Below, piece by piece: positions 7,810 through 61,225 of a DNA stretch of 64,000 nt. The stretch covers positions 4,340,001 to 4,404,000 of the forward strand of contig OX638134.1 of the NCBI GenBank assembly GCA_951804985.1, written 5' to 3'. The notes beneath the pieces are model-generated. The model made no database searches and was not told where the DNA came from. It saw only the letters and a program-made list of their open reading frames with translations. Within the stretch, counting starts at the first letter, position 1. Each line of letters begins with the position of its first letter. This DNA is from Dryomyza anilis (lineage: Eukaryota; Arthropoda; Insecta; Diptera; Dryomyzidae). Both the position numbers and the translations under genes were made by a program.

Positions 7810-7905
7810 ACTTACGCGAATTCAAGGAATTACATATGGTATGCAAGGGCTATACGAGGTAGAGCTGGGACTTACCTGGAAAGATAGAAAAAAATGCAAA
7901 AATTA
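7810..7905 (-). promoter_or_regulatory. Recursive splice site A (ratchet point) with RS-exon
   Basis: Read on the minus strand, a pyrimidine tract ending CTATCTTTCCAG runs directly into GTAAGTCCC, so a 3' splice site and a 5' splice site share one junction at 7876/7875. A branch-point-like CTTAAT lies upstream. A second GTAAGT follows at 7815-7810, defining a 60-nt 'RS-exon' (7875-7816). In flies this layout lets a long intron be removed in steps: the site is used as an acceptor, then at once as a donor. The family knowledge is established. Use in this organism is inference, strengthened by two similar sites on the same strand. Confidence 0.7.
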
Positions 7906-8040
7906 AGAAATACTCAAAATTATAATTAAAAAAATGAAATTTTTATACATAAAACTAATTTTGTATAAAACCTAAATCTTACAAAAAATTAAAATTTAAT
8001 TTTTTACTAAAATTTCCATTTATCATTTCCAAAAAAAAAA

Positions 8041-9600
8041 AACAAATTTTCATTAAATTAAATTTTTTTACTAAAAATTCAATTTTTCACTAAAAATTTG
8101 ATTTTTCACTAAAAATTCAATTTTTCACTAAAAATTCAATTTTTCACTAAAAATTCAATTTTTCACTAAAAATTCAATTTTTCACTAAAAATTCAATTTT
8201 TCACTAAAAATTCAATTTTTCAGTAAAAATTCAATTTTTCACTAAAAATTCAATTTTTTACTAAAAATTCAATTTTTCACTCAAAATTCAATTTTTCACT
8301 AAAATTCAATTTTTCACCAAAAATTCAATTTTTCACTAAAAATTGAATTTTTCACTAAAAACTGAATTTTTCACTAAAAAAATGAATTTTTCACTAAAAA
8401 TTGAATTTTTCACTGAAAATTCAAAGTATCCCTAATAATTTAATTTTTTACGAAAAATTCAAATTTTCACTAAAAATTCAATTTTTCACTAAAAATTAAA
8501 TTTTTCACTATAAATTCAATTTTTCACTAAAAATTCAATTTTTCACTAAAAATTCAATTTTTCACTAAAAATTCAATTTTTCACTAAAAATTAAATTTTT
8601 CACTGAAAATTCAAAATTGCAATAATAATTTAATTTTTTACGAAAATTTCAAATTTTCACTAAAAATTGAATTTTTAACTAAAATTTCAATTTTTCACTA
8701 AATATTGAATTTTTCACTAAAAACTGAATTTTTCACTAAAAAAATGAATTTTTCACTAAAAATTGAATTTTTCACTGAAAATTCCCTAATAATTTAATTT
8801 TTTACGAAAAATTCAAATTTTCACTAAAAATTGAATTTTTCACTAAAAACTGAATGTTTCACTAAAAATTGAATATTTCACTAAAAATTTAATTTTTCAC
8901 TAAAAATTTAATTTTTCACTAAAAATTTAATTTTTCACTAAAAATTGAATTTTTGACTAAAAATTGAATTTTTCACTAAATTTAATTTTTTACTAAAAAT
9001 ACAATTTTTCACTAAAAATTTAATTTTTCACTAAAAATTGAATTTTTGACTAAAAATTGAATTTTTCACTAAATTTAATTTTTTACTAAAAATACAAATT
9101 TTCACTAAAATTCAAATTTTCCGTAATAATTCAATTTTTCACTAAAAATTCAATTTTGCACTAAAAATTTAATTTTTCACTAAAAATTTAATTTTTTACT
9201 AAAAATTGAATTTTTCACTAAAAATTGAATTTTTCACTAAAAATTGAATTTTTCATTAAAAATTGAATTTTTCATTAAAAATTGATTTTTTCACTAAAAA
9301 TTGATTTTTTCACTAAAAATTGAATTTTTCACCAAAAATAGAATTTTTCACTACATATTCAAATTATCACTAAAATTCAAATTTTCCGTAATAATTCAAT
9401 TTTTCACTTAAATTCAATTTTTCACTTAAATTTAAAATTTTCAATAAAATTTCAAATTTTCACCAAAAATTAAAATTTTAACTAAAAATTCAAATTTTCA
9501 CCAAAAATTCAAATTTTACTAAAAATTCAAATTTTCCGTAAAAACTCAATTTTTTACTAAAAAATATCAATTTTTTACTAAAATTTTCATTTTCCATTAA
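8041..9600 (+). repeat. S19 satellite array F1 (19-bp unit, forward)
   Basis: The unit is CAATTTTTCACTAAAAATT (19 bp). The array has local higher-order structure: a block containing CCCTAATAATTTAATTT or a close variant recurs near 8411, 8600 and 8773. Edges are decayed (7990-8040 and 9440-9600). Confidence 0.95.
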
Positions 9601-10340
9601 ACACTTAATTTTACTTAAAACATTTTAATATTTTTGAAATTCATATTTTTCCAAAATCATCCCAACATTTTTGTTTGAATTTTTGTGTCTTGAAAACACA
9701 AAAAAAAAACACAGACACAATCTACAAATTATCTCATCATCGATCATGAGGCCAAAAACACCCACGAAGGTCTTCGAATTAAACCTAATTGGCTGGCGTA
9801 TCGCACGTGAGCATAGGGCACGACCTTAGCCAAGGCCTATTTGGCTTATAAAATACAATAAACGAAAAAAGTTTTTATGTAAGAAGTAATTGACATCATC
9901 GAATTTTGATTATTACAACAAACATAGGGTCTAATATTAAGACATAGCATAAAATACCTAGACAATAAAAAATATTTGAAGTTGAACAATTTTATGACCG
10001 CGAACTAATGAAGGGCTCAACGTCAAAATTAAAAATAAATAATTTTTCAGTTTTATCTATTAACATGGCCAAAACAGTTTTTGTGTGTCTGTATTTAACA
10101 CGTGTTTTTAATAAATAAAAAAAAAAACTTAGGTAGTTGGTTGATGAGGTATTTAAGTTGTTATGGCTGTCGGTCGGTCGATCGTACTTGTTATCGCCGA
10201 CAGCAGCAGCAACCGTAGATATCAAATGATAATACATAACATATATGTAAAATAAAAAAAACGTAGAATATTTTTTTTGTAGATATGAACTTTTTCAAGG
10301 GCTGCCGCCGCGTCGCAGAGGCTACTAATAAAAGCCAAAA
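9601..10340. other. Single-copy segment with a GC-richer core
   Basis: 9715-9850 is distinctly non-repetitive and GC-richer, with motifs such as ATCATCGATCATGA and GTATCGCACGTGAGC (an E-box CACGTG at 9806). 10160-10220 and 10300-10360 are smaller rises in GC. No reading frame of note. Conserved regulatory DNA is possible but not shown. Confidence 0.35.
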
Positions 10341-12629
10341 ATACGCAAAACGCGGAAGTAGATAAAAAATATTTATATAACAATTATGAAGTACATTAAA
10401 CTGAGGGCTATATAGACATAATTAGCAACATATACCTAGTGTCATTGATCCAACAAATGGTTACAAAATTTATTTTTTTATAACAGTTTTTTGTAACTAA
10501 ATGAATTGAATATTCAAAAATCAGAAATGAATTTAAAAAGATTCTCTTTCATATTACATCAATATTCGCCATTTCTACTTTAAAATATTTTTCTGGTTCT
10601 TTCTATTCGTGTGGTATACCTCAATTTTCCCTATCACTAGGGTACTGCTCGAATATTGAACATTCACCATTTTTCTTGTCAAAACTCGTTCTACATGAAC
10701 AATATGTTATTTTATAAAAAATGTCTACTTTAAGAGGGAAGATTTCTACTAAGGATATTGATCATTTCACTGATCGGGATATAAAGAGGAAGAATTCTAT
10801 TATCATTATCTGCTAATTACCGTTACTAATTCTAATAGAGTAAATACATTATATATTTATTTTTTAATATATATAAAATTCAAAAATAGTCTTTAAAAAA
10901 CTTTTTTTAGAGCTATGAGTTAAATTACTATTAAATTAGAATATTAGCAATACTTTTTAAATTAAAATTTGATTTGACAATTATGAAGATAATCCTTTTT
11001 CACATTTTTAAAAAAACTGATTTTGTAACGTTCTGTATTTTTTTTATAAAAGTCTCTAAAATGTTTCAAAATTGCGATAACAATTTTTGTTAAAAACGTT
11101 ATATGCTAGACAAAAACAGAGTACGCAGTAAAAATATATATCTTCGAATTATATAGAAAGGATGTATACAATTCTCATAGAAGTAGATTTTTTCAGTAGC
11201 CATCCTATTTCTCTATTATAATTTGATGTTGCTGATTTTGATTACATTACATAGGGAATATTTTGAAAAATAGAACCGATAACAGAAAGTTAGTAATTTC
11301 TAGATAACCGTGAACAATTATTTTTTTTACATAAAATCTAAAGTACTAAATAAATTAATCAAAAATAGTATGAAAAAATAAAATGTTTGGAATTCAAATC
11401 AAAAGTTCTAAAAAGTTTTTTATATTATTTTTTTTTTTATATATTAAAATTTGACTTAAAAGTTAAAAGAAAAATTACATTTCAAATTACTTAAAATTTT
11501 TTTTTTTTTGTAAAGGTCAGTAATTTAAATAAGGCTAAAATTGTTAAAAAGTAAGTATTAGCAACCCAAAACATATCGACTACACTTTTTTAAATAACTT
11601 ATATATTTGTTCTGAAATATTTGTTTGTTAATAACAAAAAGACCCTTAAAAAACCAAAAAAACCTTAAAAAACCACAATTAATAAAATCTTCATACAAAA
11701 TGATCTCATCCAGCTGTTTAAGCTGTTCACAAACGCGTTTCTAATTAGATGCATATCACGTTTAATTTTTTTTTATGTTTTATTAATGTTTGCTGGGTCA
11801 ATATTATATTCAGTTTCTAGTTTAAATTTTTGTATCTGTCTATTTTGTGTATTTTTAGCATTTTTTCGGCACAAAAACGCGTTTTTGCGTTACTCGTTCA
11901 TCATCATTTAAATACGCACAACAGCAACAATAGAACTTTACGCACAAGATTTTTCAGTTTTATGCTGAGTTGGGCTAATTTTAAATACACAATTAGAACT
12001 ACAAAAAAATGGTGTAGACAGACATCGTAGTTCCAGTGCGTGCGGTACAAAGATGCGCAGGTCAGGGTCGGTTAAAGTGTGTGGAATTTTTCGTCACGAG
12101 TGCTTGATTTAATAAAACAATTAAAAAAATATAATACAAAACATTGAAATTGTAAAAAAATAATTATAAAAAAAATAATTATAAAGTTTTTTCCAAAAAA
12201 ATTTTCAAATTATGTACGATATTTATTAAAAAATGTAATTTAACCTTATTTATACTTGATTTTTTCATATCTAATGTTTTTAAAAATAGTTTTATTTTAG
12301 TACTAAATTTTTAATATGCTAATTTTATATTTAGACAATCGTTTAGTAATAAAATAAAACCAAGCAAGCATTGTAATGAATCCCAAGAGACCACCCATAA
12401 TCCGAAAAATCATGCAGACTATCATTGAAGTCATAAAAATTCAAAGAAACTCTCATAAATATAACAAAAATAGAAAGATTCTAAAAAAAGACTAGTATAA
12501 AAAAGATTAAGAGTATTAAAAAAAAATATATAAAGTAGCTAAATTACACAAAAATATAGATTAAAGAAAATAATATCGAAACATTACAGAAATGATATAG
12601 ACAATATTATAATAACAGTATAAATGGTA
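10341..12629. other. AT-rich single-copy DNA, no gene seen
   Basis: I see no tandem repeat, transposon ends or splice-bounded frames. Around 12025-12095 there is a short GC-richer patch after a weak 66-codon plus-strand frame. Confidence 0.55.
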
Positions 12630-14650
12630 TTAAAATAATAGTTTAGAAAAAAGATAGAAAACTGTATAGAAAATAGTACAGAAAATAGTATAGAAAAAAA
12701 TACAGAAAATAGTATAGACAAAAGTATAGAAAATAGTATAGAAAACAGTATAGAAAACTGCAACAAATAGTACAGAAAATATTATAGAAAATAATGCATA
12801 AAATAGTACAGAAAATAGTAAAAAAAATGCACAAAACAAAGTATAGATAATTGTCGATAAAATAGTATAGAAAACAATATGGTAAATAATGCAGAAAATA
12901 GTATAGAAAATAAAATAGAAAATAGATTAGGAAATAGTTTAGGAAATCGTTTAGAAAAAGGTATAGAAAATAGTGCCGACATTAGAATTGGAAATAGTAT
13001 AAAAAATATTATATAAACTATTACAGGAAGTTATAATATATAGGAAATAGGAATTAAGTAAGGAATATTATTTCAGAAAATAGTGAAGAAAATAGTGCAG
13101 GCATATATGGTATAGAAAACGGTATAGAAAATGGTATAGAAAACAGAATAGAAAATGGTATAGAAAATAGTATAACAAATAGTATAGGAAATAGGATAGA
13201 AAATAGTATAGAAAATGGTATAGAAAACGGTATAGAAAATGGTATAGAAAATAGTATAAAAAATAGTATAGGAAATAGGATAGAAAATAGTGCAGGTATT
13301 ACTATAGGACATAGTAGAAAAAATAGTATAGAAAATATTATCGGAATTAATAATATTTAAGATATAGGAATTAAGTAAAGAAAATTGTTTAGAAAATATT
13401 ATAGAAAATAGTACAGGAAGTAGTATATAAAATAATATATAAAAGAGTATAGAAAAGAGTATAGAAAATGGTATAGAAAATGGTAATTAGAATAGTAGAG
13501 AAAATAGTAAAGGAAAAAGTACAGATTATAATATAAAAAATATTATAGGAAATGGTATAGAAAATAGTATATAAAATAGTAAATATACTATTTACAATAC
13601 TATATTATAGAAAAAAGCTATAGGAAATAGTAAAGAAAATAGTATAGAAAATAGTATAGAAAATAGTATAGAAAATAGTATAGAAAATAATGCATAAAAT
13701 AGTACAGAAAATAGTAAAAAAATTGCACAAAACAAAGTATAGGTAATTGTAGATAAAATAATATAGAAAATAATATGGTAAGTAATGCAGAAAATAGTAT
13801 AGAAAATAAAATAGAAAATAGTTTAGGAAATAGTTTAGGAAATCGTTTAGAAAAAGGTTTAGTATTGGAAATAGTATAAAAAATATTATATAAACTATTA
13901 CAGGAAGTTATAATATATAGGAAATAGGAATTAAGTAAGGAATATTATTTCAGAAAATAGTGAAGAAAATAGTGCAGGCATATATGGTATAGAAAACGGT
14001 ATAGAAAATGGTATAGAAAACAGTATAGAAATTGGTATAGAAAATAGTATAACAAATAGTATAGGAAATAGGATAGAAAATAGTATAGAAAATGGTATAG
14101 AAAACGGTATAGAAAATGGTATAGAAAATAGTATAAAAAATAGTATAGGAAATAGGATAGAAAATAGTGCAGGTATTACTATAGGACATAGTAGAAAAAA
14201 TAGTATAGACAATATTATCGGAAATAATAATAATATTTAAGATATAGGAATTAAGTAAAGAAATTTGTTTAGAAAATATTATAGAAAATAGTATAGGAAG
14301 TAGTATATAAAATAATATATAATAGAGTATCGAAAAGTGTATAAAAAATTGTATAGAAAATGGTAATGAGAATAGTAGAGAAAATAGTAAAGGAAATAGT
14401 ATAGAAAATAGTATATAAAATAGTAAAAAAAATATAGTATTGTATACTATATTATAGAAAATAGCTATAGGAAATAATAAAGAAAATAGTATAGAAAATA
14501 GTATAGAAAATAGTATATAAAATAGTATAGAAAATAGTATAGAAAATAGTATAGAAAATAGTATAGAAAATAGTATTGAAAATAGTATAGGAACAAAATA
14601 TTATAGAAAATTCCATAGAAAATAGTACAGAATAATAGAAAAGTCTAGAA
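12630..14650. repeat. 12-bp tandem array (GTATAGAAAATA) with 877-bp higher-order repeat
   Basis: The unit is GTATAGAAAATA with many point variants. A long block is duplicated: the landmark TTACAGGAAGTTATAATATA occurs at 13021 and 13898 (offset 877), and ATAATGCATA at 12791 and 13687 (offset 896). A third block begins near 14440. Reading frames here are repeats of the translated unit (FYTIFYTI...) and are not genes. Confidence 0.94.
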
Positions 14651-15575
14651 ATCCAACTAAAAAATAAAGAATATGTTAAGAAAATAGGGTAAAAGAATTT
14701 CTCCAAATATAAAAATAAAATCCAAATCGTAGGTCTCATCAATAATTTTCTCATATCTCTCTTTAACTATTGCCTGTATATCGATCGATCTTATTACGCA
14801 TCATCTTCGTGTGCGAGTGACTGCGTGAGTGAGTGCGTGAGTTCGTTTGCATGTGCGTGAGTGTGACAATTGAAAAATATATATTTTCGAAATTTAACGA
14901 AGTTCAAGGTCAGTAAATAATCTACAGACGTGCACATACACAAAACGCCTAAAACACACACGCACTTTAAATATAAACATGATGAAAAAAAGGAAAAAAA
15001 AAAGAAAAAGCAAGAACAAGAACTATAAGAATTACCCAAAACAAATATAATTTTATGCGATCTGTGTTGGCAGCCCAAAGACCCAGAAAAATAACGACGC
15101 ACACACAATATTTGGATAGTTTTCGAGTAAACAAAAGAAAATAAAAATTAAATAAAATAAAAAAAAAAAAACAAATCCAAATGAAAAATTAGAACATTTC
15201 ATTTCTAGAACTCTATATACAAAGTTTAATGAGGACATGATGACGATGTAGGCAAAACCAATAGCATAAACATTAAAATTACATATAATTGAGGAAGGAA
15301 AAACAATAAAAGATGAGTGAAGAAAGAAAAAAAATCTAAATTGAGGATTACCAAAAAATTAGGGAATTATATAATGGGAAGTAATAATGATCGCTATAAA
15401 GTGTAGAAATTGAAACAAATAAATAAGAAAAGAAGTTTTTAAAAAAGAGGGATTTTTAATATCTTTTGGAGAAGTTACTCAAATATCTATGTTCACTATT
15501 ATTTAATATATAAATAAAAATAAAATTCACAATAAACTTTTCAATCAAATTTAAATTATTCATTTAATTAAATAT
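14651..15575. other. Single-copy DNA with a small GT/GC-rich island
   Basis: 14780-14960 contains GTGAGTG-type repeats and ATCGATCGATC, then A-rich DNA. Two short minus-strand frames (15108-14794, 15238-15053) are A-rich shadows. No gene supported. Confidence 0.4.
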
Positions 15576-16790
15576 TTAACTAAAAATTCAATTTTTCACT
15601 AAGAATTCAATTTTTCACTAAAAATTCAAATTAACACTAAAAATTCAATTTTTCATTTAAATTTTTTTCTATAAATTCAAATTTTCACTGAAAAATTCAA
15701 ATTTTCACTAAAAATTATTTTTTTTACTATAAATTCAATTTTTCACTAAAAATTCAATTTTTCATTATAAATTCAATTTTTCACTAAAAATTCAATTTTT
15801 CACTAAAAATTCAATTTTTCACTAAAAATTTAATTTTTCACTAAAAATTTAATTTTACACTAAAAATTTAATTTTTCACTAAAAATTCAAATTTTCACTT
15901 AAAATTCAAATTTTCACTAAAAATTCAATTTTTCACTAAAAATTTAATTGTTCACTATAAAATTCAATTTTTCACTAAAAATTCAATTTTTCACTAAAAA
16001 TTCAAATTTTCACCAAAAATTCAATTTTTCAATAAAAATTCAATTTTTCACTAAAAATTCAATTTTTCACTAAAAATTCAATTTTTCACTAAAAATTCAA
16101 TTTTTCACTAAAAATTCAATTTTTTCACTAAAAATTCAATTTTTTCACTAAAAATTCAATTTTTTCACTAAAAATTCAATTTTTCACTAAAAATTAAATT
16201 TTTCGCTATATATTCAATTTTTCACTAAAAATTCAATTTTTCACTAAAAATTCAATTTTTCACTAAAAATTCAATTTTTCACTAAAAATTCAATTTTTCA
16301 CTAAAAATTCAATTTTTCACTAAAAATTCAATTTTTCACTAAAAATTCAATTTTTCACTAAAAATTCAATTTTTCACTAAAAATTCAATTTTTCACTAAA
16401 AATTCAATTTTTCACTAAAAATTCAATTTTTCACTAAAAATTCAATTTTTCACTAAAAATTCAATTTTTCACTAAAAATTCAATTTTTCACTAAAAATTC
16501 AATTTTTCACTAAAAATTCAATTTTTCACTAAAAATTCAATTTTTCACTAAAAATTCAATTTTTCACTAAAAATTCAATTTTTCACTAAAAATTCAATTT
16601 TTCAATAAAAATTCAATTTATCACTAAAAATTCAATTTTTCACTAAAAATTCAATTTTTCACTAAAAATTCAATTTTTCACTAAAAATTCAATTTTTCAC
16701 TAAAAATTCAATTTCTCACTAAAAATTCAATTTTTCACCTAAAATTCAATTTTTCACTAAAAATTCTATTTTTCACTAAAATTCACGTTT
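15576..16790 (+). repeat. S19 satellite array F2 (forward)
   Basis: The most homogeneous S19 array: from about 16220 to 16600 the 19-bp unit CAATTTTTCACTAAAAATT repeats with almost no changes, implying recent homogenisation. Decay increases towards 15576. Confidence 0.97.
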
Positions 16791-18092
16791 TTACTATAAA
16801 AATTGATTGCTTCATTACATCATCCCATAATTTGTTTTCATTTTTAAAATATTCTAACTCGTTTGCGCATGCGTAGCCCGTTCGTCATCTTATCTAATGG
16901 ATTTACATACAAAATTAATCAACGTCACCGTCGATCATCGTTCGTTGATCATTCTACTATTCTGGTTGTATAGTATTTTTCCGCTACCTATGTCCGACAT
17001 GATTTGCCTCAAAATTTTGATATGTTGTTGTTGCTTTCAATTTTATTCTAGGTAAATACCACAAAAATTACACCTTTTTCAATTTCGTTTGCCGTTTATT
17101 TTATTTATTTTGTGTTACATTAATTTGTTTTTTTTTATTTCTTTTTTTTCTAGTTCTATCTACGAAACAGAAAGTCGTTAGGCGACTTTTTAGGCTATAC
17201 CATTTTTTGTGTTACACCTATGTTTTGCTTTCTTTCTTACCTTTTTTTTTGTAACTTCGAAAAGTATGTTTTTGAGTTTTTGTTTTGCTGATCTTGTAAT
17301 ATGTTTTTTTTTTGTTTTATTTTTCGGTTATTTATTTTTGTTTTTGTAAGTTCTGAAATCAAAAGTCATATCGTAGAACAAAAAAGAAGGCCTACACTTA
17401 AAAAGGCTTCGCCGTTGTGTTGGTCATGATCGATGTAACGTTTTTTTTTTTTTGAGCCAAGCTACGGGTTCTATTTTTTATGTATTTCTTTCGTTTAGAT
17501 AGCTGTTTTGTTCTGCTTTCTTTTGCTTCTTTTCAAATAATTTAATTGTGTAGAACCCATTGAGAATGCAGTCAAGTTGTGGGTTGACTCGAAATTTGAT
17601 GTTAGCCAAATGAGAAATGGGTTAATAGGTTTATGTCAGGTTGTTGTTGCTTTTAATATGTTTTTTTTATCTTTTTTGTTTTTTTTTTGTAGCATAAAAA
17701 GGTTCCAAAAGCCGCTTTAAATAAAGAAAGTGGAAAATTTTCAAGGTTGCTGCTTGTTTGGGTCATAAATACACGAAGAAGATCAGTTTGAAATAGAATT
17801 TAAAAGATGTGGATTATAGAGGAAATGGTATACAAAAGTTATACAATTTAGAAGAGTTGTAAAATGCTGCATTTAAAATGTTTGTAGTGCTAGAAAAAGT
17901 TATTCACGTACTTTTTAAACTAGTTGCTACTTAAAAGAACAATTATTGAATGAAAAAGGGTTGATTTTCAAGTGTACACAGATAGGACTATTTTTATTTT
18001 AACTCGAGAACCAATGGGGGTAAAGCATATTACTTTGAACACTAAGAAACCACTTGACATTTATTAATATACTCTAGAAAATTATAGAAATT
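16791..18092. other. T-rich single-copy DNA
   Basis: Contains a GC-richer patch at 16855-16990 and long T runs at 17100-17700. A plus-strand TTCTAG/GTAAAT at 17046-17057 resembles a ratchet point but has a weak donor. No gene found. Confidence 0.5.
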
Positions 18093-18632
18093 TACACCAT
18101 TTCGGGAAGTCATGATCATGGCCACATGATCACACATGATCATGATCACCTATCAGTGACATGATCATTAATGTCACTGGTAGGATTTTTAGAGAAATTT
18201 CGAAATATCGAAAATTTTGAAAGGGTTTATTCGAATTTCAAATATATTTTGTACCTTCACTAGTTTAAATCTTTAAAATCAGAATTTGTAAAATATATTA
18301 TGCACCATTTAGGGTAGTCATGATTATGACCACATAATGATCATGTCACTGGTAGGATTTTCAGAGAAATATCTAAAATTTTCAAAGGGTTTATTCGAAT
18401 TTAAAATAAATTTTGTACTTTCTCAAGTTTAAATCTTTAAAATCAGAATTTGTAAAATATATTATGCACCATTTGGGGTAGTCATGATTATGACCACATA
18501 ATGATCATGTCACTGGTTGGATTTTTAGGGATATATCAAAATTTTCAAAGGGGTTATTCGAATTTAAAATACATTTTGTACCTTCACTAGTTTAAATCTT
18601 TAAAATCAGAATTTGTAAAATATATTATGCAC
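18093..18632. repeat. About 164-bp tandem repeat with ATGATCATG palindromes
   Basis: The landmark TGCACCATTT (or TTACACCATTT) recurs at 18093, 18301, 18465 and, truncated, 18628: intervals of 208, 164 and 163. The first copy is expanded by a cluster of ATGATCATG-type palindromes at 18110-18180. The copies share AATCAGAATTTGTAAAATA at their ends. Confidence 0.88.
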
Positions 18633-21722: not shown

Positions 21723-21769
21723 ACATACTTCATTATCTTTCATTTGTGCTTTTAAAAAGCTTCTCAATG

Positions 21770-49998: not shown

Positions 49999-50280
49999 TT
50001 TAATTAAAGTATGGTTTTGCCGCTTGGTTCTGGCTAAATTTCCATTAATGAAGACATATTCAATAAGTCTTGGGTGACTTTTGGAATAATATCAGTTATC
50101 CAAGATTGGTAATCCAATCATGGCTGGGACTATTAAAGTCTAATGGACGGCCAAGATTGGATATTCCTTACGCCCGTTGTCAAGCCTGGCGTTTCCTACA
50201 TGGGTACCCAAGCATATGTCTGTTAGTTCTGGCTGAGTCTTGGGCGAGAACTACCCTACCAGACCTGCATTTGTCACTTC

Positions 50281-50708
50281 CCCTAGTAGAAATTTGCCCG
50301 ATGCGTCATCGGGAAATGATCGGGTTTTCGTTGGGTAAGCCCTATTAGAGAAAATATGATCATTGCCTTTGCATGCCCTTATCGTGCTTACAATAGCAGG
50401 GTTTACATTATCTAAACAGTCAATGTTTCCGATCATAGCTACATTATTTGTTCCTCATAACGAAATTAGCATCAGGCAATGATCGAGATAATGAGAGAAA
50501 CCCTATTATGCTCGGACTCAGACAAGAAAATTGTCGGGTAAATATTAAAATGGGGAATTGCCCGATCAGTACATGATCATGGCCTGAGGTCAATACATGA
50601 TCAGGACACTGCGTTACAAGGACATTATGGGCCTCGTCATATCCCGATCATCTCAAATAATGACATGATCACTTCATGACCATGGCCCTACCAAAATGTC
50701 TACTAGGA
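50281..50708. mobile_element. 428-bp insertion with terminal inverted repeats, nested in a 50-bp repeat
   Basis: Ends are CCCTAGTAGAAATTT and the complement of TCCTAGTAGACATTTT. TC dinucleotides flank it (50279-50280 and 50709-50710). Removing it restores the 50-bp repeat in phase: CACTTC joins TGGCTGAG, as in the intact copy at 50805. Internal ATGATC/CCCGATCA palindromic motifs. No reading frame, so non-autonomous. Confidence 0.85.
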
Positions 50709-50914
50709 TCTGGCTGAGTCTTGGGCAAAGGTGTTTTAACCAAGCATTGGTTTGTCAATTCTGGCTGAGTATAGGGCGAGAACTTCTTTACCAAGCTTTC
50801 ATTTGTCAGTTCTGGCAGTCTTGGGCGAAGGTTTATTAACCAAGCATTGGTCTGCCAGTGCTGGTTGAGTATTCAGCCAGTCGCATTTCTTATATGGGTA
50901 TTTCAAAAGCACTT

Positions 50915-51240
50915 AAAAGTTTTAATAAAAGTATTTATAAAAGTATTTAAAAGTAAGCATGAAAGTATTTATAAGAGTAATTATAAAAGTATTTATAAAA
51001 AGTATTGTAAAAGAATTTAAAAGTATTTATTAAAGTATTTATAAAAGTATTTATAAAAGTATTTATAAAAGATGTTTTTAAATGCATTTATAAAATATTT
51101 ATAAAAGTATTTATAAAAGTACTTATAAAAGTATTTATGAAAGTATTTATGAAAGTATTTATAAAAGTAATTTTTAAATTATATATAAAAGAGTTTATAA
51201 AAGTATTTAAAAACAATTTTGAAAAAGTATTTAAAAAATT
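50915..51240. repeat. 12-bp tandem array (AAAGTATTTATA), right copy
   Basis: Same 12-bp unit and orientation as 49257-49450, less regular. Confidence 0.9.
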
Positions 51241-51855
51241 AAAAAAGTAACCTAAAATTTTTCAAAGTGTTGCGCATAGTTGCGTCTTTTTCCTCGTCAC
51301 AAACTTTTTCATTTTTTTTGCATGTTTTTTCTGTTTCTCTCCTCTATATTATTATATTTTTTTCATCAAGTGTGTTGTGCACGCGCAACCATCTGATTAA
51401 ACAGAACACATACACCGTAGTGCCCACCGTCCGTCCTAAATGCGCCTCGCAAATCCATATACAGCCTATATGCTTCGTCCGCGTGTAGGTATCTGTGTGC
51501 CTTCGGAACTAGGTGAACGACCGTCGATAAGGCGCGACCTTCAAAATAATCTGGGCCAAGTGGAATTTAGTTGTTTGAGGATATCGCTCATTCACTCTTT
51601 CACTGACAACTCGACTAGGCGTGCTAGTCTCTCATTCTCTCTCTCACTCTCTGCGAACCTACCATCCTCCCTCTTTCTACCGTACACTCTTTCTTAAGTT
51701 ATGAAGCTGTGTTTCATGCTGTTTTCTTCGATTCCTTCTATTTATTTGTATTATTTACTTAATTTTCGGTGAAACATTCGCACATTAAGTGAGTCTCTGC
51801 TATATGTGTTTTAAATTGTATTTGTACTGTGGTGTCTTGACTGCGCTCTAGCGCC
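51241..51855 (+). promoter_or_regulatory. GC-richer island upstream of a TATA box
   Basis: Contains TGTGCACGCGCAACC, GAACGACCGTCGATAAGG and a CT-rich tract (CTCTCATTCTCTCTCTCACT, 51628) of GAGA-factor type. Short plus frames (51267-51488, 51440-51697) overlap and are not recognised. Leads directly into the TATA box at 51856, so promoter-proximal DNA is plausible. Confidence 0.4.
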
Positions 51856-51862
51856 TATAAAA
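51856..51862 (+). promoter_or_regulatory. TATA box (TATAAAA)
   Basis: CTATAAAAT in a GC-richer context (TCTAGCGCCTATAAAATAA). A start is expected about 30 nt downstream, near 51886, in ATCGACGGACGAAC; no strong initiator there. A donor 40 nt further on makes a short first exon. Confidence 0.4.
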
Positions 51863-51885
51863 TAATTCGCCACCATCATCGACGG

Positions 51886-51925
51886 ACGAACTCTATTATT
51901 TTGATTGGATTATGTTGATGAAGAG
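51886..51925 (+). other. Possible short first exon ending at GTAAGG donor
   Basis: Begins about 30 nt after the TATA box and ends GAAGAG before GTAAGGTAG (51926). Start not fixed. If joined to the exon at 53485, an ATG at 51911 would open a frame of about 18 codons only, so the exons would be mostly leader. Confidence 0.3.
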
Positions 51926-52184
51926 GTAAGGTAGGGGTATGGGTAGGGAGGAACACGAAAATTGTTAAGGCGCTGATTTTGGCAAAAAGTGGGGCATTTT
52001 TTGAGTGTTGTGGTTAGCCAAAGTTTTGGTTAGTTTGGGAGGGGGCAGGAATGCCTATAGAGGATTCGAGGTTTTCTTTTACTTTTTATGTAATTGTTAA
52101 TTGTTTGATATCTGGATAAAAATTTATTTTGTTAATTTCCAAATATTTCAAAACAGTGTTTTTATGTAAACCAATTTTTTGTGA
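51926..52184. other. Single-copy DNA after the donor
   Basis: G-rich patch (GGTAGGGGTATGGGTAGGGA) then AT-rich DNA leading into array R4. Confidence 0.4.
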
Positions 52185-53320
52185 AAATTTGATTTTAGTG
52201 AAATTTTCAATATTTAGTGAAAAATTCAAATTTTAATGAATACTTAGTTAAAAAAATAATTTTTAATGAAAAATTGATTTTTAAATGAAAAATTTAATTT
52301 TTAGTTAAAAATTGAATTTTTAGTTAAAAATTGAATTTTTAGTTAAAAATTGAATTTTTAGTTAAAAATTGAATTTTTAGTTAAAAATTGAATTTTTAGT
52401 TAAAAATTGAATTTTTAGTTAAAAATTGAATTTTTAGTTAAAAATTGAATTTTTAGTTTAAAATTTAATTTTAGTTTCAAATGGAATTTTTAGTTTCAAA
52501 TGGAATTTTTAGTTAAAAATTGAATTTGTTTAGTGAAAAGTTTTAATTTTGAGTGGTATAATATTTAATTCTTAGTGAATAATTTAATTTTAGTTAAAAA
52601 GTGAATTTTTAGTTAATAATTGTATTAATAGTGCAAAATTTAATTTTTAGTTAAAAATTTAATTTTTAGTTAAAAATTTAATTTTTAGTTAAAAATTTAA
52701 TTTTTAGTTAAAAATTTAATTTTTAATTAAAAATTTAATTTTTAGTTAATAATTGAATTTTTAATTATAATAAATTTTTAGATAAAATTTAACTATTAGT
52801 TAAAAATTTAACTTTTAGTTAAAAATTGAATTTTTAGTGAAAATTTGAATTTTTAATTAAAAATTTAATTTTTAGTTAAAAATTGAATTTTTAGTTAATA
52901 ATTGAATTTTTAATTAAAAAAAAATTTTAGATAAAATTTAACTTTTAGTTAAAAATTTAATTTTTAGTTAAAAATTAAATTTTGAGTAAAAAATTGAATT
53001 TTTAGGTAAAAAATTGAATTTTTAGTTAAAAATTGAATTTTTAGTTAAAGATTGGAATTTTAGTGAAAAATTGAATTTTTAGTGAAAAATTAAGTTTTAA
53101 GTGAAAAATTGAATTTTTAGTGAAAAATGGAATTTTAGTGAAAAATTAAATTTTTAGTGAAAATTTGATTTTTTAGTGAAAATTTGATTTTTTAGTGAAA
53201 AATTGAATTTTTAGTGAAAAATTGAATTTTTAGTGAAAAATTGAATTTTTAGTAAAAAATATAATTTTTAGTAAAAAATATAATTTTTAGTGAAAATTCA
53301 ATTTTTAGTGAAATCTTAAT
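52185..53320 (-). repeat. S19 satellite array R4 (reverse, TTAGTTAAAAATT variant)
   Basis: Left two thirds consist of GAATTTTTAGTTAAAAATT units, with T for G at one position; the right third returns to the standard AGTGAAAAATT form. So two homogenised sub-arrays meet near 53050. Confidence 0.94.
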
Positions 53321-53484
53321 TTTTTTTATAATATTTTTAACTATATCAATATCAATTGGAATAATCTCATATCATCCCAAATGTGCTCCATCTGTAGCAG
53401 AACTTTTGACCTTTATTTTAGTGCAAATCCTCTTTTTATTTAGTTACTTATTTATTTATATATTTATTTGTTTCTCTTTTGCAG

Positions 53485-53528
53485 GATATGCGACACCTAC
53501 GCAGTATTTGACATTATTGATTTTTGAG
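53485..53528 (+). other. Candidate 44-nt exon with strong splice sites
   Basis: TTTCTCTTTTGCAG precedes it and GTAAGTTGCC follows, both close to the fly consensus, and the 44 nt between are GC-richer than either flank. Three readings: one frame is fully open (Y-A-T-P-T-Q-Y-L-T-L-L-I-F-E), the others stop inside. Spliced to the acceptor at 56698, the open frame would continue N-I-N-N-S-Q-A-L-S-A-S-F for about 31 codons to a TAG. Joined upstream to 51925 that frame meets stops. Coding status is therefore open. Confidence 0.5.
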
Positions 53529-53579
53529 GTAAGTTGCCAATTCATTGTATAGATAAAACCCACCTCCCCACTACACGCA

Positions 53580-53790
53580 AAAACTTTTGGCATGCTCAAG
53601 GCGGTTTAGAAACATGTTAAGCAATATTTTAAGCAGCCAAGGACATATTGTTTTTATAAAAGACTGTCTATTTTCTGCTTGTCCCCAAAATATACCGAAA
53701 TGTTGTCTTAAAAATTCCATACATTTTGATAACTTGCAATACGATTCCCACAAATGACATTCCAAATATTACCAAAAAATTTAAAATTTC
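53580..53790. repeat. Isolated relative of the 61.2-62.8 kb repeat
   Basis: Shares TTTAGAAACATGTT, GTCCCCAAAATATACCGAAA and AATTCCATACATTTTGAT with units of the array at 61228-62780. One unit only. Confidence 0.55.
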
Positions 53791-54779
53791 TTTTAATAAT
53801 ATTCAAAAATCTTGAACAAAATAAAATATACAAAATAATAAAAATAAATGAAGAATAATTAAGTTAAAAACATTATTACTAAATTTATAACGTGATATAA
53901 ATTCTAAATTTCTGCAAATAATGTAGATTCCCAAATAAAGTTGAATTTACAATTTGAAGTAGGTACCATTTAAAGTTAAACATTAACTGCCACAATAAGT
54001 TTCAGTCAGCCATACAATAAATTATATTAAACCACCTAATAAGTGCATAATTATAAAAAGGGTTCAAAGAATACAAGAAAAAAGTATATAAAACGTGCTT
54101 AAATTATAAACAGAAATAAATGACGTAGATTTAGAAAAGTTTTGCTCGATCACTCAACGATGCCACGTGCGGCAAATATTCAAAACTTTGCAATGGCCAG
54201 CGAAATCTACCCAAACCAAGCAACATCGCTGTGATAATGAAAAAAGGACTAAGGCAATATTGAGGCAGAAAACTTCAGGGTCAACAACAGTAATAAAAAG
54301 AATATAAAAATACAAAAGAGGAATATAAAAATACAAAACTAAAAGGAATATAAAAAAACAAAAAAAAAGAACATAAACAATAATACAAAACAAATGTGAA
54401 AAAAACCTCCCTTAAAACAAATGTAGGCTTTAGTGTTAACGTCTGACAACTGCCTCCAGCAAGCGCTGCCTTAATAACAGGGATGCCAAATACTGCTTTT
54501 GGTAGAGCTACTTTGAGTGGGAGGTTTATTAAGTGGGCGACTTTTTGAGGGAGTAGTTGAATGTTTGAGGTAGGTGCTTTTTTATGTATTTCAGTTGACC
54601 CACAAACATAAACGCGAAATGATAACTACCATTTTTGTGGTTTTCCAATAAAACAAAGAAGCAGGACAATATCTAGGTTGACTTTTCAGGGAACATTTTT
54701 ATTTTTTAATAATTGAAATTTAAAGAATTTTAAATAAAAGCATTTTCTAAAAATTAAATCTTTACTAATTAAATTCGAA
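53791..54779. other. AT-rich single-copy DNA
   Basis: A GC-richer patch at 54145-54290 and another at 54430-54560. The minus frame 54393-54154 has a hydrophobic, F/L-rich part from A-rich DNA and is not convincing. No splice sites stand out. Confidence 0.45.
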
Positions 54780-56335
54780 TTCAATTCACTAAAATTTTAA
54801 TTTTGCGCTAATAATTAAATTTTCAATAAAAATTCAAATTTTCAATAAAAATTCAAATTTTCACTAAAAATTCACTAAAAATTCAATTTTTCATTTAAAA
54901 TTCAATTTTTCACTAAATATTCAATTTTTCACTAAAAAATTCAATTTTTCACTAAAAAATTCAATTTTTCACTAAAAATTCAATTTTTCACTAAAAATTT
55001 AATTTTTCACTAAAAATTAAATTTTTCACTAAAAATTAAAATCACTAAAAATTCAATTTATCACTAAAATGCAATTTTTCACTAAAAATTAAAAATTTTC
55101 CACTAAAATACAATTTTCCACTAAATATTCAATTTTTCACTAAAAATTCAAATTTTCACTAAAAATTCAATTTTTCACTAAAAATTCAATTTTTCACTAA
55201 AAAATTCAATTTTTCACTAAAAATTTAATTTTTCACTAAAAATTCAAATTTTCACTAAAAATTCAAATTTTCACTAAAAATTGAATTTTTCACTAAAAAT
55301 TCAATTTTTCACTAAAAATTAAATTTTTCACTAAAAATTAAATTTTTCACTAAAAATTCAATTTTTCACTAAAAATTCAATTTTTCACTAAAAATTCAAT
55401 TTTTCACTAAAAATTCAATTTTTCACTAAAAATTCAATTTTTCACTAAAAATTCAATTTTTCACTAAAAAATCAAATTTTCACTAAAAATTCTATTTTTC
55501 ACTAAAAATTCAATTTTTCACTAAAAATTTAATTTTTCACTAAAAATTCAATTTTTCAATAAAATTTTTATATTTCACTAAAAATTCACTTTGTCACTAA
55601 AATTTCTATTTTTTCACTAAAAATTCAATTTGTCACTAAAATTTCAATTTTTTACTAAAAATTCAATTTTTCACTAAAAATTCAAATTTTCACTAAAAAT
55701 TCAAATTTTCACTAAAAGTTCAATTTTTCACTAAAAATTCAATTTTTCACTAAAAATTCAATTTTTCACTAAAAATTCAATTTTTCACTAAAAATTCAAT
55801 TTTTCACTAAAAAAATCAAATTTTCACTAAAAATTCAATTTTTCACTAAAAATTCAATTTTTCAATAAAATTTTTATATATCACTAAAAATTCAATTTCT
55901 CACTAAAATTTAAATTTTTTACTAAAAATTCAATTTTTCACTAAAAATTCAAATTTTCACTAATATTTCAATTTTTCACTAAAAATTCAATTTTTCACTA
56001 AAAATTCAATTTTTCACTAAAAATTCAAATTTTCACTAAAAATTCAATTTTTTGACTAAAAATTCAATTTTTCACTAAAAATTCAATTTTTCACTAAAAA
56101 TTCAATTTTTCACTAAAAATTCAATTTTTCACCAAAAATTTAATTTTTCACTAAAAATTCAGTTTTTAACTAAAAATTAATTTTTCATTAAAAAGTAAAT
56201 TGTTCACTAAAAATTCAATTTTTCACTAAAAATTCAACGTTTTTATTAAAAATTAGATTTTTTATTAAATATTTAATGTTTCACTTAAAATTAAATTGTT
56301 CACTAAAAAATCAATTTTTTACTAAACATTTTTTT
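54780..56335 (+). repeat. S19 satellite array F5 (forward)
   Basis: 19-bp S19 units, well kept at 55340-55470 and 55720-55800. A block with AATTTTTATATTTCACT or AATTTTTATATATCACT repeats near 55562 and 55867, indicating a local higher-order duplication of about 305 bp. Confidence 0.95.
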
Positions 56336-56698
56336 TTTTTTTTACATTTAAAAATTTCTTTATTAAAACCATTTGTAAAATTTGAAGCGCATTGAAATCT
56401 TGAGCACAGTAAAACCCAACAGCTGCTGACAGGGCGAAGACACCTAAAAGTAGGCAATGCTATTTTTAGCACATACTATATGAAAGAGAGTGAGCACTAA
56501 AGAGAGCGTGTGAAATGAGAAACGCGTATTATGTGACAGTTTAGGCAATTCGCAACGTTTATAACTTAATTTTGCCACACTTTCTTAATTTTTCTAATTT
56601 CTTTCCATTTTTTTTTTTGTTTTACCTTTCTGACTTTTGCTATATCAAATATTCACTCTTTTTATTACTCTTCCCTCTCACACTTTTCTTTTTGGCAG
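56336..56698 (+). other. Single-copy DNA ending in a strong 3' splice site
   Basis: A long pyrimidine tract (CTCTTCCCTCTCACACTTTT) ends at TTTTTGGCAG (AG at 56697-56698), with TTTCTGAC as a possible branch site upstream. Best plus-strand acceptor in the window besides the one at 53484. Confidence 0.45.
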
Positions 56699-57260
56699 AA
56701 CATTAACAACTCGCAGGCGTTAAGTGCGTCCTTCCGGTGGCGCCCTCTACCACGCCACTACCCTGTCGTCGCCCACAGTGTTGCCACCCCTTAGAAACAG
56801 CAGCAGCAACAACATCCACATTAATGACTTCTTGTGGCCAACTTTATGTTTGTTTTTGCTTTTGTTGTACGCTTTTTGTGTACGCAGCGTTTATATATAT
56901 GAAGCACCCAAAAAATAGAGAGAATGATAAAAAAAACTTATCGTGTTGCTGTTGTTACTTTGTATATGTTGCTGCTCGATGACGTTGCTACTGCTTTTGT
57001 TGTTGTCTTATTTTCTCTCTTGCTTATTGTTGTTGCTTGTTGGCCTTGACTTAGAGTAAACCTATTTTGTATGGTTTTATTGTTTTTTTTTTATTCTATT
57101 TTATTTATTGTTGACATCTCAGCAGTGGCAACAGCAAAAACTGAAAGGATCTGCGACGCAAGAAATTTGTTTTCTGTTGTTGCCCTTAAATTATGTTGTT
57201 GTTATTGTAATTTTTTACACAACAACAAAATCAAAATCATAAAAACAATAATATGATGAA
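56699..57260 (+). other. Possible exon start and GC-richer island between arrays F5 and R5
   Basis: 56699-56830 is GC-rich (GGTGGCGCCCTCTACC, CAGCAGCAGCAACAACA). A short open frame follows the acceptor to a TAG near 56792. No donor or polyadenylation signal could be assigned. The rest is TTG-rich. Frames at 56724-56982 overlap and are not recognised. Confidence 0.35.
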
Positions 57261-57317
57261 TGGAAAGAAAACGTATATGTTAAAAATTAAAAAAAAAAAA
57301 AATTGTAATTGTTAAAA

Positions 57318-57530
57318 TTTTTAGTGAAAAATTGAGTTTTAAGTGAAGAATTGAATTTTTAGTGAAAAAAATAATGTTTAGTAAAGAATTGAATTTTTAG
57401 TGAAAAATTAAATTTTTTGGTGAAAAATTGAATTTTTATTGAAAATTGAGTTTTGAGTGAAAATTCAAATTTTAGTGAAAAAATGAATTTTTAGTGAAAA
57501 TTTGAATTTTTAGTGAACATTTAAATTTTT
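57318..57530 (-). repeat. S19 satellite array R5 (reverse, short)
   Basis: Ten or so diverged reverse units (GAATTTTTAGTGAAAAA). It faces F5 across the 56.4-57.3 kb island. Confidence 0.85.
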
Positions 57531-58497
57531 TGCTTCAGTGTTTCTTTTTTGCTTCAGGTTCAATATACAAATTTATCAAAATATTTTAATACCTTCAAGG
57601 ATACGCAGCTTATCCTTGAGTAATCGATATCAATAAAATGAAATTATGCCCACGTGTGTGAGGTAAACAAAACGACAGTAATATTAATGATTACTATTTT
57701 GACACAAATTTCCGCACAACTGCGTGTCAAAGACAACTTATAATATACATATTCGATAGGGTGTATTTTTTACAACTACGATTTATTTTATCAACAAATG
57801 AAATTCAATAGAAATCCATAGAAACAGCAACCCATAATTATTTGAAATCAGTATTCTATGCACAATGTCAAGGTTAACAAGTCACCAATGTGTCAGCAAT
57901 TTAAAAACAATTAACATAATGATTCCATTAATTTCAGATCAGTTAATTAGATGAAATTGATTGAAAAAGCGTGCATTAAATAGCTTTCATTAATGACGCC
58001 TACAGATATGCTACACCTTAGCAAAATCAATTTAAAAATGCGCGCCAAATTTATTTCAAATGCATTTCTAATGCCAACTGCTGGCGCCATCTGTTGTGCA
58101 TTAGCTTAAGTTCATAGATGAGCTTTTGCATTGTTGTTGTATCTTGTTGTGCAAGTAGCTTTTTTGTGTTTACAGCTGCAACGCCAAGCTTTTGGTGGTG
58201 GCTGCAGTTTGCAACTTAGTGCAACATATGCAAATGACGCTGCAAGCTTTTGGAAGCTTTGCCAGATTTTGCCAGATGTTGCCAGATTTTGAAGAAATTA
58301 ATAATACATTTGAAATTATATTTGTTATAGGAAATTTTTGGAGTATTTATTTTTGGCTATACGACTCTATTGCTTTTCGATAACAATTACTATATATTGT
58401 CACTGTCTAACAATCTTCCATTTTCCAGTAAAAATATAGTTATTTAATCTCCGTAACGTTTTCTTTACACATCATCATTTCAGAGAAAAGACTTCTC
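57531..58497. other. Single-copy DNA with a GC-richer patch
   Basis: 58030-58290 has GCTGGCGCCATCTGTTG, AAGCTTTTGG repeats and a TTGCCAGATTTTGCCAGATG short tandem (58259-58290). A 63-codon plus frame (58192-58383) is not recognised. Confidence 0.4.
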
Positions 58498-58700
58498 CCA
58501 CTCAGAAAAAAATACCATAGAATCAATAGTTTCTTGCTATTTAAACTAGTCAATAGAATAAACTATTATTTTAATAGTTTAATACCATTAAATACTAGAA
58601 AATACTATTATATTATTTTTTAGTTTATATGCAATTTTTATTTTTTTGTAAACTATTGAAACAATAACTGTCCTATTGACTAATTATTACTACATTATTA
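58498..58700. mobile_element. Possible MITE remnant (CACTCAGAAAA end)
   Basis: Starts CACTCAGAAAAAAATACC, the same first 11 bases as the nested element at 27853. Interior is rich in AAACTATTA/TAATAGTTT inverted motifs. No matching right end found. Confidence 0.4.
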
Positions 58701-60279
58701 AAATTTCAATTTTTACTTAGTTTAGACAACTCTTTATATTTTCAACAATTTAGACTTGAAAAGGCCAATATAATTTCTTCACCGATTATGATAAACAAAA
58801 GATATTAAAAAGAAAATTTTCGAAAATTTTCAATTGGTTGCTAATTCAACTCTTCGAATCAAAAACATTTATTATTCATTTTTAAATACCCCAAAATTCG
58901 GTTTTTCGAACCAATATTCGCATTTATTTTTTGATACTTCTGGAACTTAAAAGCTATGGATCATTGTCGAAAATTGTGAAAAATGTACGACACTTTACAA
59001 GTTTAAATTAGTACATCACAAAAAGGATATCGTCGTTGTAGAAGTAAACGTCACTAACTACATTTTCAAAATGCCGATTATTGATTTACAAACATCTTTA
59101 TACATCTGTCAATGAACTCGATCGATAAGCTCAATATTTGTACCAAATGATAAGAAAATATGATTCTATCAATTGGTATTTCAACATTAAAAATGTACAA
59201 ATAACTTTTTATAATAATAATCAAGAAACTCGAAATTTAAGATTTTCATAAAAATGTATTTGATGACTTTTAGTTGTACAACGACGATATATTCCCCAAA
59301 ATCAATGCTGTTGGGAGAACAGGTTCCCAGTCCCACCCTGCAAGCCAACGAGTCTACAGAGTGATGAGACTTTTAATTTTTTGTACGAAAAGAAACAATA
59401 TTTTCAAATAGAGTTGAAATTAAGTGGTAACTAACAGAGTAATACAATGTTTAGTGAAAGACTTATTGATGTTACCATAAACAATAAAGTCAATAAGTAT
59501 GTTTTTTTATATAGTCAATTATTACCACGAATTTTACTTCTTTCAATCAAGAATAATATTTCTGAATACTTTTTCTATTCACTTCGAAACAAGACGAATA
59601 GTTCTAATAACTTCTTTTTCGAAAATAACGAACGATTATCAACAAAGTCACTAAGTATATTTGCCATTAATTTTCTAGAGTAAACTATTGTCACGAATTT
59701 TACTTCTCTCAATCAAGAAGAATATTTCTAATTACTTTTCTTATAATCTACATTTTTTATAGAATATATTTTCTGCAGTCTTGGAAAAAAGAAAAATCTT
59801 TATGAGTATTTCTTTTTCGAAAATTACGAACTTATTTTCTGCAACTTAAGAAGGTATTCAACGATTACTTTTTTTGATGGCCCCAGTTGTTTTAGTTTTG
59901 ATTTTCTAGTAGCAATTTTCTGGAAACTTCCAAGTAAATATATAGATAAATGAAGGACATTCTGTCAAATTCATTTATCTATATTGTTACAAAAATATGT
60001 AATTTGCCCCATAGTGCTAGCATTTTACAATAATAAATAAGCGCATTAAGCAATGTGTTAGAAAAAGACGGAAGATCATTTAGCGTACTGAGCAATGTGC
60101 GAGAAAGAGATAGAAGATCAGCACATTAAAACACATGAGTGCGAACAATATGTTACTCGGAAGTTTCCAGAAAGTTCCAGAAATTATTTCACGATATATA
60201 ATTTATATTAAGCTGTAAAAATGTCTGTAATTCTGTCGTTAAGTTAAATGCATTTTAATTAAACTAATTTTTTTAAATT
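58701..60279. other. AT-rich single-copy DNA, no gene seen
   Basis: 59300-59370 is a small GC-richer patch (GGGAGAACAGGTTCCCAGTC). AATTTTACTTCT/TCAATCAAGAA motifs repeat near 59530 and 59697, suggesting an old duplication of about 165 bp. The plus frame 59447-59683 lies in it and is not coding-like. Confidence 0.45.
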
Positions 60280-60570
60280 ATGTGGCAACACTTTCAGAGA
60301 GCACAATAAGCAAGTGAGAAGCTATTTATCCCGTTATGAATAACGGAAGAGCATGAGTCGGTGCAGCGCTTCCGTTTTCGTTTGTGTTGCGTCGTCAGTT
60401 AGAGAAAATATTCCATTGCCAACAAGTTGCAATTTTTGCCGGCAATTGTTGCAGTTGCAGCAACTTCTCTTCACCTGCTACCGCTGCTCTACACGACGCA
60501 TCTACTCTTTCGACCCATTCTACTCTCTGTCAATAAAACAACCCACACTCTCTCTCTTTCTTTAGAGAAA
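60280..60570. other. GC-richer island with CT tract and acceptor-like end
   Basis: Contains GTGCAGCGCTTCCG and TTGCAGTTGCAGCAAC, ending in CACACTCTCTCTCTTTCTTT and AG (60564-60565), which reads as a plus-strand 3' splice site or as a GAGA-type tract. No partner donor. Confidence 0.35.
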
Positions 60571-61128
60571 CTGTAATTCAGCGCCTGACATTGTGCAGTA
60601 GAGCAAAATCCTTGAATGCAACCGGAAACTCAGACATATGCATTTGTTTTTTTCGGAATATTAGGTTCTCATTGCCTGTAAAGCTTTACAGCGTAGGCAA
60701 CTATTTATGTCCTTGGCAGCGCAGAGGCAACTCTGAGTAGGCAGTAGGAGGGCGGCAGCGCAGTCATTGGCAAAAGGACATCAGCTGTTTTGCGGTGGTT
60801 AAAGGTCAGGTTTCTGCTGAATTTTTTTATTATTGTTGTTGTTGAAATTTTTGGTAGGTAATAAAGTCTAGCATGGGGTAGGTTTTGTAATGTGTCATAT
60901 ATTTGGAGGATGTATTTGAATTTTTGCGAAGAGCCTCGTCGTCGAAGTCGCCTAGACAAAGCAGCACATTGACGGAGGCTGCAAGCGGAGAAGCGGAAGG
61001 CAACAAGGCTCAGGGACATGCCAAGGATAGCGCCAGAGCGTTACATGGCCAAGGGCAGAGCACTTGATTGACAATGACCTCCAATAGCAGCAGTTTAAAT
61101 TCTATTAAAAGCAATTTACGTAGCTACT
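60571..61128. other. GC-richer island just downstream (minus sense) of ratchet site C
   Basis: 60700-61080 is GC-rich with a 104-codon minus frame (61019-60705) that is arginine/serine-rich and unrecognised. Lying within the 500 nt after a ratchet point, it is probably conserved intronic DNA; an exon cannot be excluded. Confidence 0.35.
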
Positions 61129-61225
61129 ACTTACATGGCAATGCATTGCATGGGGGTAAATGTGATGCAAAGAATATACGTACCTGAAAGAAAAAGAGAA
61201 TAAAGAGAAATTAGATAAAATTTTA
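61129..61225 (-). promoter_or_regulatory. Recursive splice site C (ratchet point) with RS-exon
   Basis: On the minus strand, CTAAT (branch) is followed by a pyrimidine tract ending CTCTTTTTCTTTCAG, fused to GTACGTATA at junction 61184/61183. A further donor, GTAAGTAGT, lies at 61134-61129, so the RS-exon is 49 nt (61183-61135). The acceptor half is excellent. The donor half is GTACGT and not GTAAGT but still fits GTRNGT. With sites A and B it forms a one-strand series consistent with stepwise removal of very long introns. Confidence 0.7.

Follow-up and report, generated by a model that had tools for sequence, protein, structure and literature searches.

Three putative ratchet points of recursive splicing in a 145-kb intron of the Eip75B/E75 gene of the fly Dryomyza anilis

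The closest described counterparts of the system reported here are the Drosophila ratchet points with cryptic recursive-splicing exons (RS-exons), as in kuz, Bx, Ten-m and other genes, where a very long intron holds, on its sense strand, strong 3' and 5' splice sites fused as AG|GT; the RS-exon that follows is about 50 nt long, ends at a donor of its own and has a frame-breaking content (definition as in PMC8605326 and PMC6110457). In the published model (PMC8605326), recognition of such a short cryptic RS-exon, of about 50 nt, is followed by its removal. Also related are the Ubx RS-exons m1 and m2, in a regulatory gene with several recursive sites in a single very long intron, and the vertebrate RS-exons under the control of the exon junction complex, which likewise have competing donors. 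We analysed a stretch of 64,000 nt of the Dryomyza anilis genome (hereafter the window; contig OX638134.1, C5:4340001-4404000), whose minus strand carries three sites of this type. From their sequence, position and frame, and from genome-wide statistics, we consider it highly probable that they are ratchet points in the long intron of an upstream isoform of Eip75B/E75 (hereafter E75), which is, by sequence homology, the host gene.

The E75 sites nevertheless differ from each of these systems. Compared with Drosophila ratchet points, the pieces into which they divide the intron are mostly longer (17.8-51.6 kb), the intron is rich in satellite DNA, and one site has a GTACGT with a stronger RS-exon donor. 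Ubx m1 and m2 are 51 nt long, conserved along their length and included in some messenger RNAs, whereas each of the three E75 RS-exons would break the frame; mammalian RS-exons are mostly expressed exons, with few fully suppressed ones in long introns (sections of PMC8605326). The mechanism itself is very likely the known, ordinary recursive splicing of flies, here in a gene and genome for which we met with no previous account of it. Lists of recursively spliced Drosophila genes were reportedly drawn up by Burnette in 2005 and Duff in 2015, and E75 may already be on such lists. In the literature searched, supplementary tables excepted, no report of recursive splicing in E75 was found. Neither Eip75B nor E75 is named in the main texts of PMC6110457, PMC8605326 and PMC8906543, and in PMC13276073 Eip75B and recursive splicing appear only in the reference list; among the papers listed, E75 and recursive splicing occur together in PMC13149111 and PMC11040157, each with a single mention of E75.

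A preliminary description of this DNA had placed three junctions on the minus strand, each with an AG fused to GTACGT or GTAAGT, and a second GTAAGT 49, 37 and 60 nt further on. All three junctions proved exact to the base, and all three second donors lie where they had been claimed. In window numbering, ratchet point 1 (61129..61214; junction at C5:4401183) consists of a candidate CTAAT at 61214-61210 (branch A 61211), a pyrimidine tract, the AG at 61185-61184 and the putative recursive donor GTACGT at 61183-61178; its RS-exon, 61183-61135 (49 nt), is followed by GTAAGT at 61134-61129. Ratchet point 2 (25659..25729; C5:4365701) has two candidate branch points, a CTAAT with its A at 25726 and a CTAAC with its A at 25717, a pyrimidine tract, the AG at 25703-25702, a recursive GTAAGT at 25701-25696 and an RS-exon at 25701-25665 (37 nt) with its GTAAGT at 25664-25659. 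Ratchet point 3 (7810..7906; C5:4347875) has a candidate TTAAT (branch A 7903), a pyrimidine tract, the AG at 7877-7876, a recursive GTAAGT at 7875-7870 and an RS-exon at 7875-7816 (60 nt) with its GTAAGT at 7815-7810. The candidate branch A thus lies at -28 from 61183, at -25 (CTAAT) or -16 (CTAAC) from 25701 and at -28 from 7875, the first-listed candidates being at nearly equal distances from their junctions. Both 61183 and 25701 are free of AG over the 60 nt upstream.

The identity of the host gene is indicated first by an exon of the window itself. The minus-strand stretch 40727..40811 is, by homology, the first coding exon of one E75 isoform: it encodes MTVGSREDLFANAKHIDDTERLIGRVLA plus one base (phase 1; 28 residues), ends at the donor GTGAGT (40726-40721), and is a GC-rich, coding-like stretch, in which an open reading frame with coding-like base periodicity was found on reading 40500-41000. 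A protein search with MTVGSREDLFANAKHIDDTERLIGRVLA (E<=10) returned six matches, all of them fly E75 (E 4.5e-8 to 1.6e-6, 96% identical), namely the N-termini of Eip75B/E75 from two hoverflies, two Musca species, Stomoxys and Lucilia; 27 of the 28 residues are the same as in hoverfly E75, and likewise in house-fly relatives. When 130 proteins (P0001-P0130) were compared with the window by tblastn (E 0.01), seven were placed on this exon, the other matches being glutamine-rich only, near 29.4 kb. A search of PDB with the 29-residue peptide gave no match.

In the assembly as a whole (656,607,178 bases, 69 contigs), further E75 exons flank the window in order and on the same minus strand, those of the DNA- and ligand-binding domains included. 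Upstream lies an N-terminal exon (C5 ~4442915-4441466) that ends in ...SIPDL, with its donor at C5:4441465. Downstream, homology places an exon of another isoform (~4309207-4308404) and the first zinc-finger exon (C5:4296309-4296221). These are followed at ~4258318-4257608 by an exon belonging to the isoform in which the first zinc finger is missing, then by the second zinc-finger exon (~4257128-4256979) and by further exons at ~4236975-4236736 and ~4229963-4227417. With GAT-TTA-G|GTGAGT at the end of the upstream exon and AG|AA-TTC-GAT at the start of the first zinc-finger exon, their joining gives the DL-EFDG of known E75 proteins. In alignments of 1020-1067 positions, from which the first zinc finger was left out, E75 identity is 69.8% with Musca autumnalis, 69.0% with the screwworm fly Cochliomyia hominivorax and 65.6-68.5% with the tephritids among the 24 best-scoring proteins compared.

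By these borders, the whole window (1..64000) lies inside an intron of the upstream isoform that runs from the donor at C5:4441465 to the first zinc-finger exon at C5:4296309. The giant minus-strand intron of the preliminary description is thus confirmed through coding-exon homology, independently of any splice motif, and measures 145,156 nt. The exon 40811-40727 is an alternative first exon within it, 84,417 nt from the zinc-finger exon. The three junctions are all in the sense strand of this intron, the longest mapped in E75, and divide it into pieces of 40,282, 35,482, 17,826 and 51,566 nt, or of 15,025, 17,826 and 51,566 nt for the isoform starting at 40811-40727. Three sites in 145 kb amount to 2.1 per 100 kb, against 2.196 ratchet-point sites per 100 kb in large fruit-fly introns and 0.101 on their complement in the relevant part of PMC2773006, where sites were scored differently.

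The strength of the three motifs sets them apart in the window. With splice matrices of fly consensus values, 61183 and 25701 both score 22.1 bits and 7875 scores 19.4, while the next best of the 222 AGGT sites on the two strands reaches 12.3. The word AGGT[AG][AC]GT occurs only six times on both strands, and the three occurrences with a pyrimidine fraction of at least 0.86 are 61183, 25701 and 7875; the remaining three have no GTRAGT inside 130 nt. In 300 block-wise dinucleotide shuffles, sites of at least 19.4 bits arise at a rate of 0.010 and 0.013 per strand; 400 order-3 Markov sequences modelled on the minus strand yield 0.02 such sites per 64 kb, and in neither set does a downstream donor accompany them. 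A GTAAGT starts 20-100 nt past a random minus-strand position in 1.3% of cases, and does so at all three junctions. Among minus-strand acceptors of at least 10 bits, three of 23 are followed by a strong donor (0.06 expected), as opposed to none of 24 on the plus strand. Across 237 kb of the E75 locus, both strands taken together, these are the only AGGT sites above 15.8 bits. At this strength, then, one strand holds three sites where 0.01-0.02 are expected, each with a downstream donor.

Sites of the same type were then counted over the whole genome, with the mirrored pattern as control. The strict pattern, TTTCAGGTAAGT followed by GTAAGT 25-55 nt on, occurs 21 times, and its mirror never. A second donor is thus found at 21 of the 124 occurrences of TTTCAGGTAAGT, where about 0.7 would be expected from the GTAAGT density of the window. 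Features outside the pattern are also present at these 21 loci: 20 are free of AG over the 40 nt upstream and 16 over 60 nt (baselines of 12% and 5% for the 583 TTTYAG sites of the window, and of 27% and 18% for random stretches), and 16 carry a YTAAY 16-45 nt upstream. They form a ready catalogue (loci L033-L053), with RS-exons of 34-61 nt, a range partly set by the pattern, and a mean of 45.6 nt. These pattern counts provide sequence evidence that ratchet-type sites carry a downstream donor far above chance in this fly genome. The relaxed pattern, TTYYAGGTAMGT with a second donor, occurs 49 times, all three E75 sites included. All ten pairs of relaxed sites less than 200 kb apart are on the same strand, and they form three triples and one pair. 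The triples are E75, C2:29240389-29319274 (minus strand) and C5:53065103-53168644 (plus strand), loci L041, L042 and L050 being noted with the latter two; those at 29.24-29.32 Mb of C2 and 53.07-53.17 Mb of C5 probably mark other giant introns. If the 49 sites were placed at random, 0.00035 same-strand triples would be expected within 104 kb and 0.0001 within 54 kb.

Copying of a repeat was considered as a source of the ratchet points and set aside, since no repeat family was seen, although older relationships could still link some of them. The 24 ratchet loci (the 21 strict ones and the three of E75) show 15 weak alignments among themselves, none of which involves an E75 site; 14 span the splice junction (up to 108 nt at 72%) and one lies elsewhere. 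When stretches of 601 bases around the ratchet points were compared with the window by BLAST, no second copy of a junction was present among the matches listed (the first six of 364 for 7875, the first six of eight for 25701, both of two for 61183), and the flanks gave satellite and short-repeat overlaps. Against the genome, 7770-7990 had one more weak match, at C5:69938441 (72%, E 3.1e-6), which covers only the part upstream of the junction. Viral contigs, scanned with the satellite unit and with two ratchet junctions out of the three, gave no match.

Several observations speak against recursive splicing at these sites. A rival reading is that AT-rich, T-rich DNA yielded acceptor-like tracts, three of them beside a GTAAGT by luck, splice-like words being common in long AT-rich DNA. 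The consensus values of the splice matrices were entered by hand. GTAAGT is not in excess on the minus strand of the window (11, versus 10 on the plus strand). At 7875, the branch-point candidate is a TTAAT and an AG lies 37 nt upstream, so that this site is not AG-free even over 40 nt. The same 145-kb intron holds a sense-strand site of 15.8 bits at C5:4337790, which has no downstream donor, and an antisense site of 15.3 bits at C5:4434863, where a donor-like word follows after 42 nt. Taken by itself, the 12-mer TTTCAGGTAAGT shows no enrichment, as its mirror occurs 115 times, and the mirror of the relaxed pattern has 18 matches, so part of the 49 relaxed sites may be due to chance. Pieces of 35-52 kb exceed the mean of 9.1 kb and the typical 9-15 kb given for Drosophila recursive pieces in PMC6110457, and at 61183 the regenerated GTACGT is weaker than the RS-exon donor (8.5 and 9.9 with the hand-entered matrix). 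Luck is nevertheless an extremely improbable explanation, in view of the expectation per strand at this strength, of the downstream donor present at every site, of the sense orientation of all three within a single intron whose place was established independently, and of the rarity of such same-strand triples among randomly placed sites.

As regards the preferred reading, that of ratchet points in the E75 intron, the use of the sites in RNA, the order of the steps and the role of the RS-exons would, as we infer them, be as follows. The upstream exon (...SIPDL, donor C5:4441465) would be joined to the acceptor at 61183, defined across its short RS-exon. The donor regenerated at this junction would then be joined to 25701, the next one to 7875, and the last one to the zinc-finger exon at C5:4296309. 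Because a donor would be regenerated at successive junctions, the 145-kb intron would be removed in four parts, of 40.3, 35.5, 17.8 and 51.6 kb. In the isoform starting at 40811-40727, only 25701 and 7875 would be used. The RS-exons would define the acceptors and would then have to be left out, since each would stop or shift the E75 frame.

The frame of E75 is indeed intact if all three RS-exons are left out, and the inclusion of any single one after the upstream exon creates a stop in this frame: the 49- and 37-nt RS-exons shift the frame, with a stop inside the next exon, and the 60-nt one contains an in-frame TAG. The sole double inclusion tested after the upstream exon, that of the 49- and 37-nt RS-exons together, also leads to a stop. 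The RS-exon architecture put forward in the preliminary description is present at all three sites and is frame-breaking at each. With the hand-entered matrix, the regenerated donor scores 11.6 against 8.3 for the RS-exon donor at 25701, and 11.6 against 6.0 at 7875, so that competition between donors would favour skipping at these two sites and not at 61183. At fly ratchet points in general the ratchet donor tends to be the stronger of the two, which is seen here at two sites of three. This layout fits the cryptic RS-exon model, from which the donor strengths at 61183 depart, and makes 61183 the one to watch. One could alternatively propose that at least one RS-exon, most likely that of 61183, is retained in mature E75 RNA as an ordinary or poison cassette exon, recursion being secondary. 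The reversed order of donor strengths at 61183, unlike that of the other two sites, is in line with such micro-exons, as is the finding that weakening ratchet-point donors in Drosophila turns cryptic RS-exons into included ones (part of PMC8605326). In the same source, however, donor strength by itself does not decide inclusion, and lengths of 49 and 37 nt are not multiples of 3, the 60-nt exon has its TAG, and every inclusion tested stops the E75 frame; expressed micro-exons are thus rather unlikely.

A separate question is whether 61183 belongs to the intron that follows SIPDL at all, or serves another transcript, for instance as a 5' untranslated exon or as part of a separate gene that lies upstream of 40.8 kb. 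This site does lie upstream of exon 40811-40727, and the GC-richer sequence at 60-61 kb may include an exon that is not annotated. It is, however, flanked on its own strand by two E75 exons, with the upstream donor 40.3 kb away, and Pfam scans flagged no family at cut-off in the frames covered: on the minus strand, three frames of 9601-12600, 14601-20100 and 21701-64000 and two of the three frames of 1-8060; on the plus strand, three frames of 1-8060, 21701-41700, 49401-52200 and 56301-64000. The lowest E was 0.028 (DUF4131, 14.6 bits for a cut-off of 31.6), and the E75 exon itself was left unflagged by these scans. Service to another transcript is therefore improbable.

E75 is an early ecdysone-response gene, and a role in timing the hormone cascade has been discussed for the long introns of genes of this kind. 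The ratchet points of E75 offer a test case for the timing or filtering of hormone receptor isoforms, and its 145-kb intron, with three of them in a 657-Mb satellite-rich genome, a defined place to test recursive splicing against intron growth. A bolder, joint reading would make recursive splicing an isoform-specific switch of E75 and add to it the folding of the 35-kb piece by inverted satellite arrays. Only the upstream isoform has to pass 61183, and since the RS-exon donor is the stronger one there, its transcript could be diverted into frame-shifted, stop-containing RNA unless the choice of donor is regulated, for instance during an ecdysone pulse. As to the folding, a 19-bp satellite forms inverted arrays between the ratchet points, and these may cause the 35-kb piece to fold so that its ends come close, in a combination of ratchet and intron-stem models, the latter having been proposed for mammals (part of PMC2773006). 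The inverted pairs are 47090-48673 with 54749-56330, 15673-16770 with 52235-53322, and 20057-21007 with 42640-43589; the best one is 1.6 kb long with 89.8% identity and a 6-kb loop, its predicted duplex reaching -676 kcal/mol (700-nt arms). In large fruit-fly introns, stems of this sort are nearly absent (0.03 per 50 kb, in the same part of PMC2773006). The same arrays also occur outside the intron, so that their inversion need not be selected. We regard this joint reading as speculative and rather unlikely.

The window has other features. Arrays of the 19-bp satellite are found in both orientations throughout the intron. Two GC-richer islands in the AT-rich intron, 31400-31950 and 60340-61060, are possibly unannotated promoters, 5' untranslated exons or E75 enhancers. 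Minus-strand initiator-like words near 41.8 and 31.5 kb lack a downstream promoter element and are not claimed as promoters. The poly(A) signal AATAAA, present 149 times on the minus and 173 times on the plus strand, is uninformative as an independent strand signal. Searches of the window for Rfam families and transfer RNAs gave no match. On the plus strand, ~49917-49997 resembles by eye an element derived from a transfer RNA (A- and B-box-like words), perhaps a short interspersed nuclear element, where ARAGORN calls no transfer RNA; a diverged repeat of about 51 bp lies nearby. Finally, 24188-24415 and 40177-40406 are copies, 230 bp long and 88% identical, of what is likely a short transposable element. 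They lie in inverted orientation to each other, and each carries a similar minus-strand acceptor-like site (24322 and 40388).

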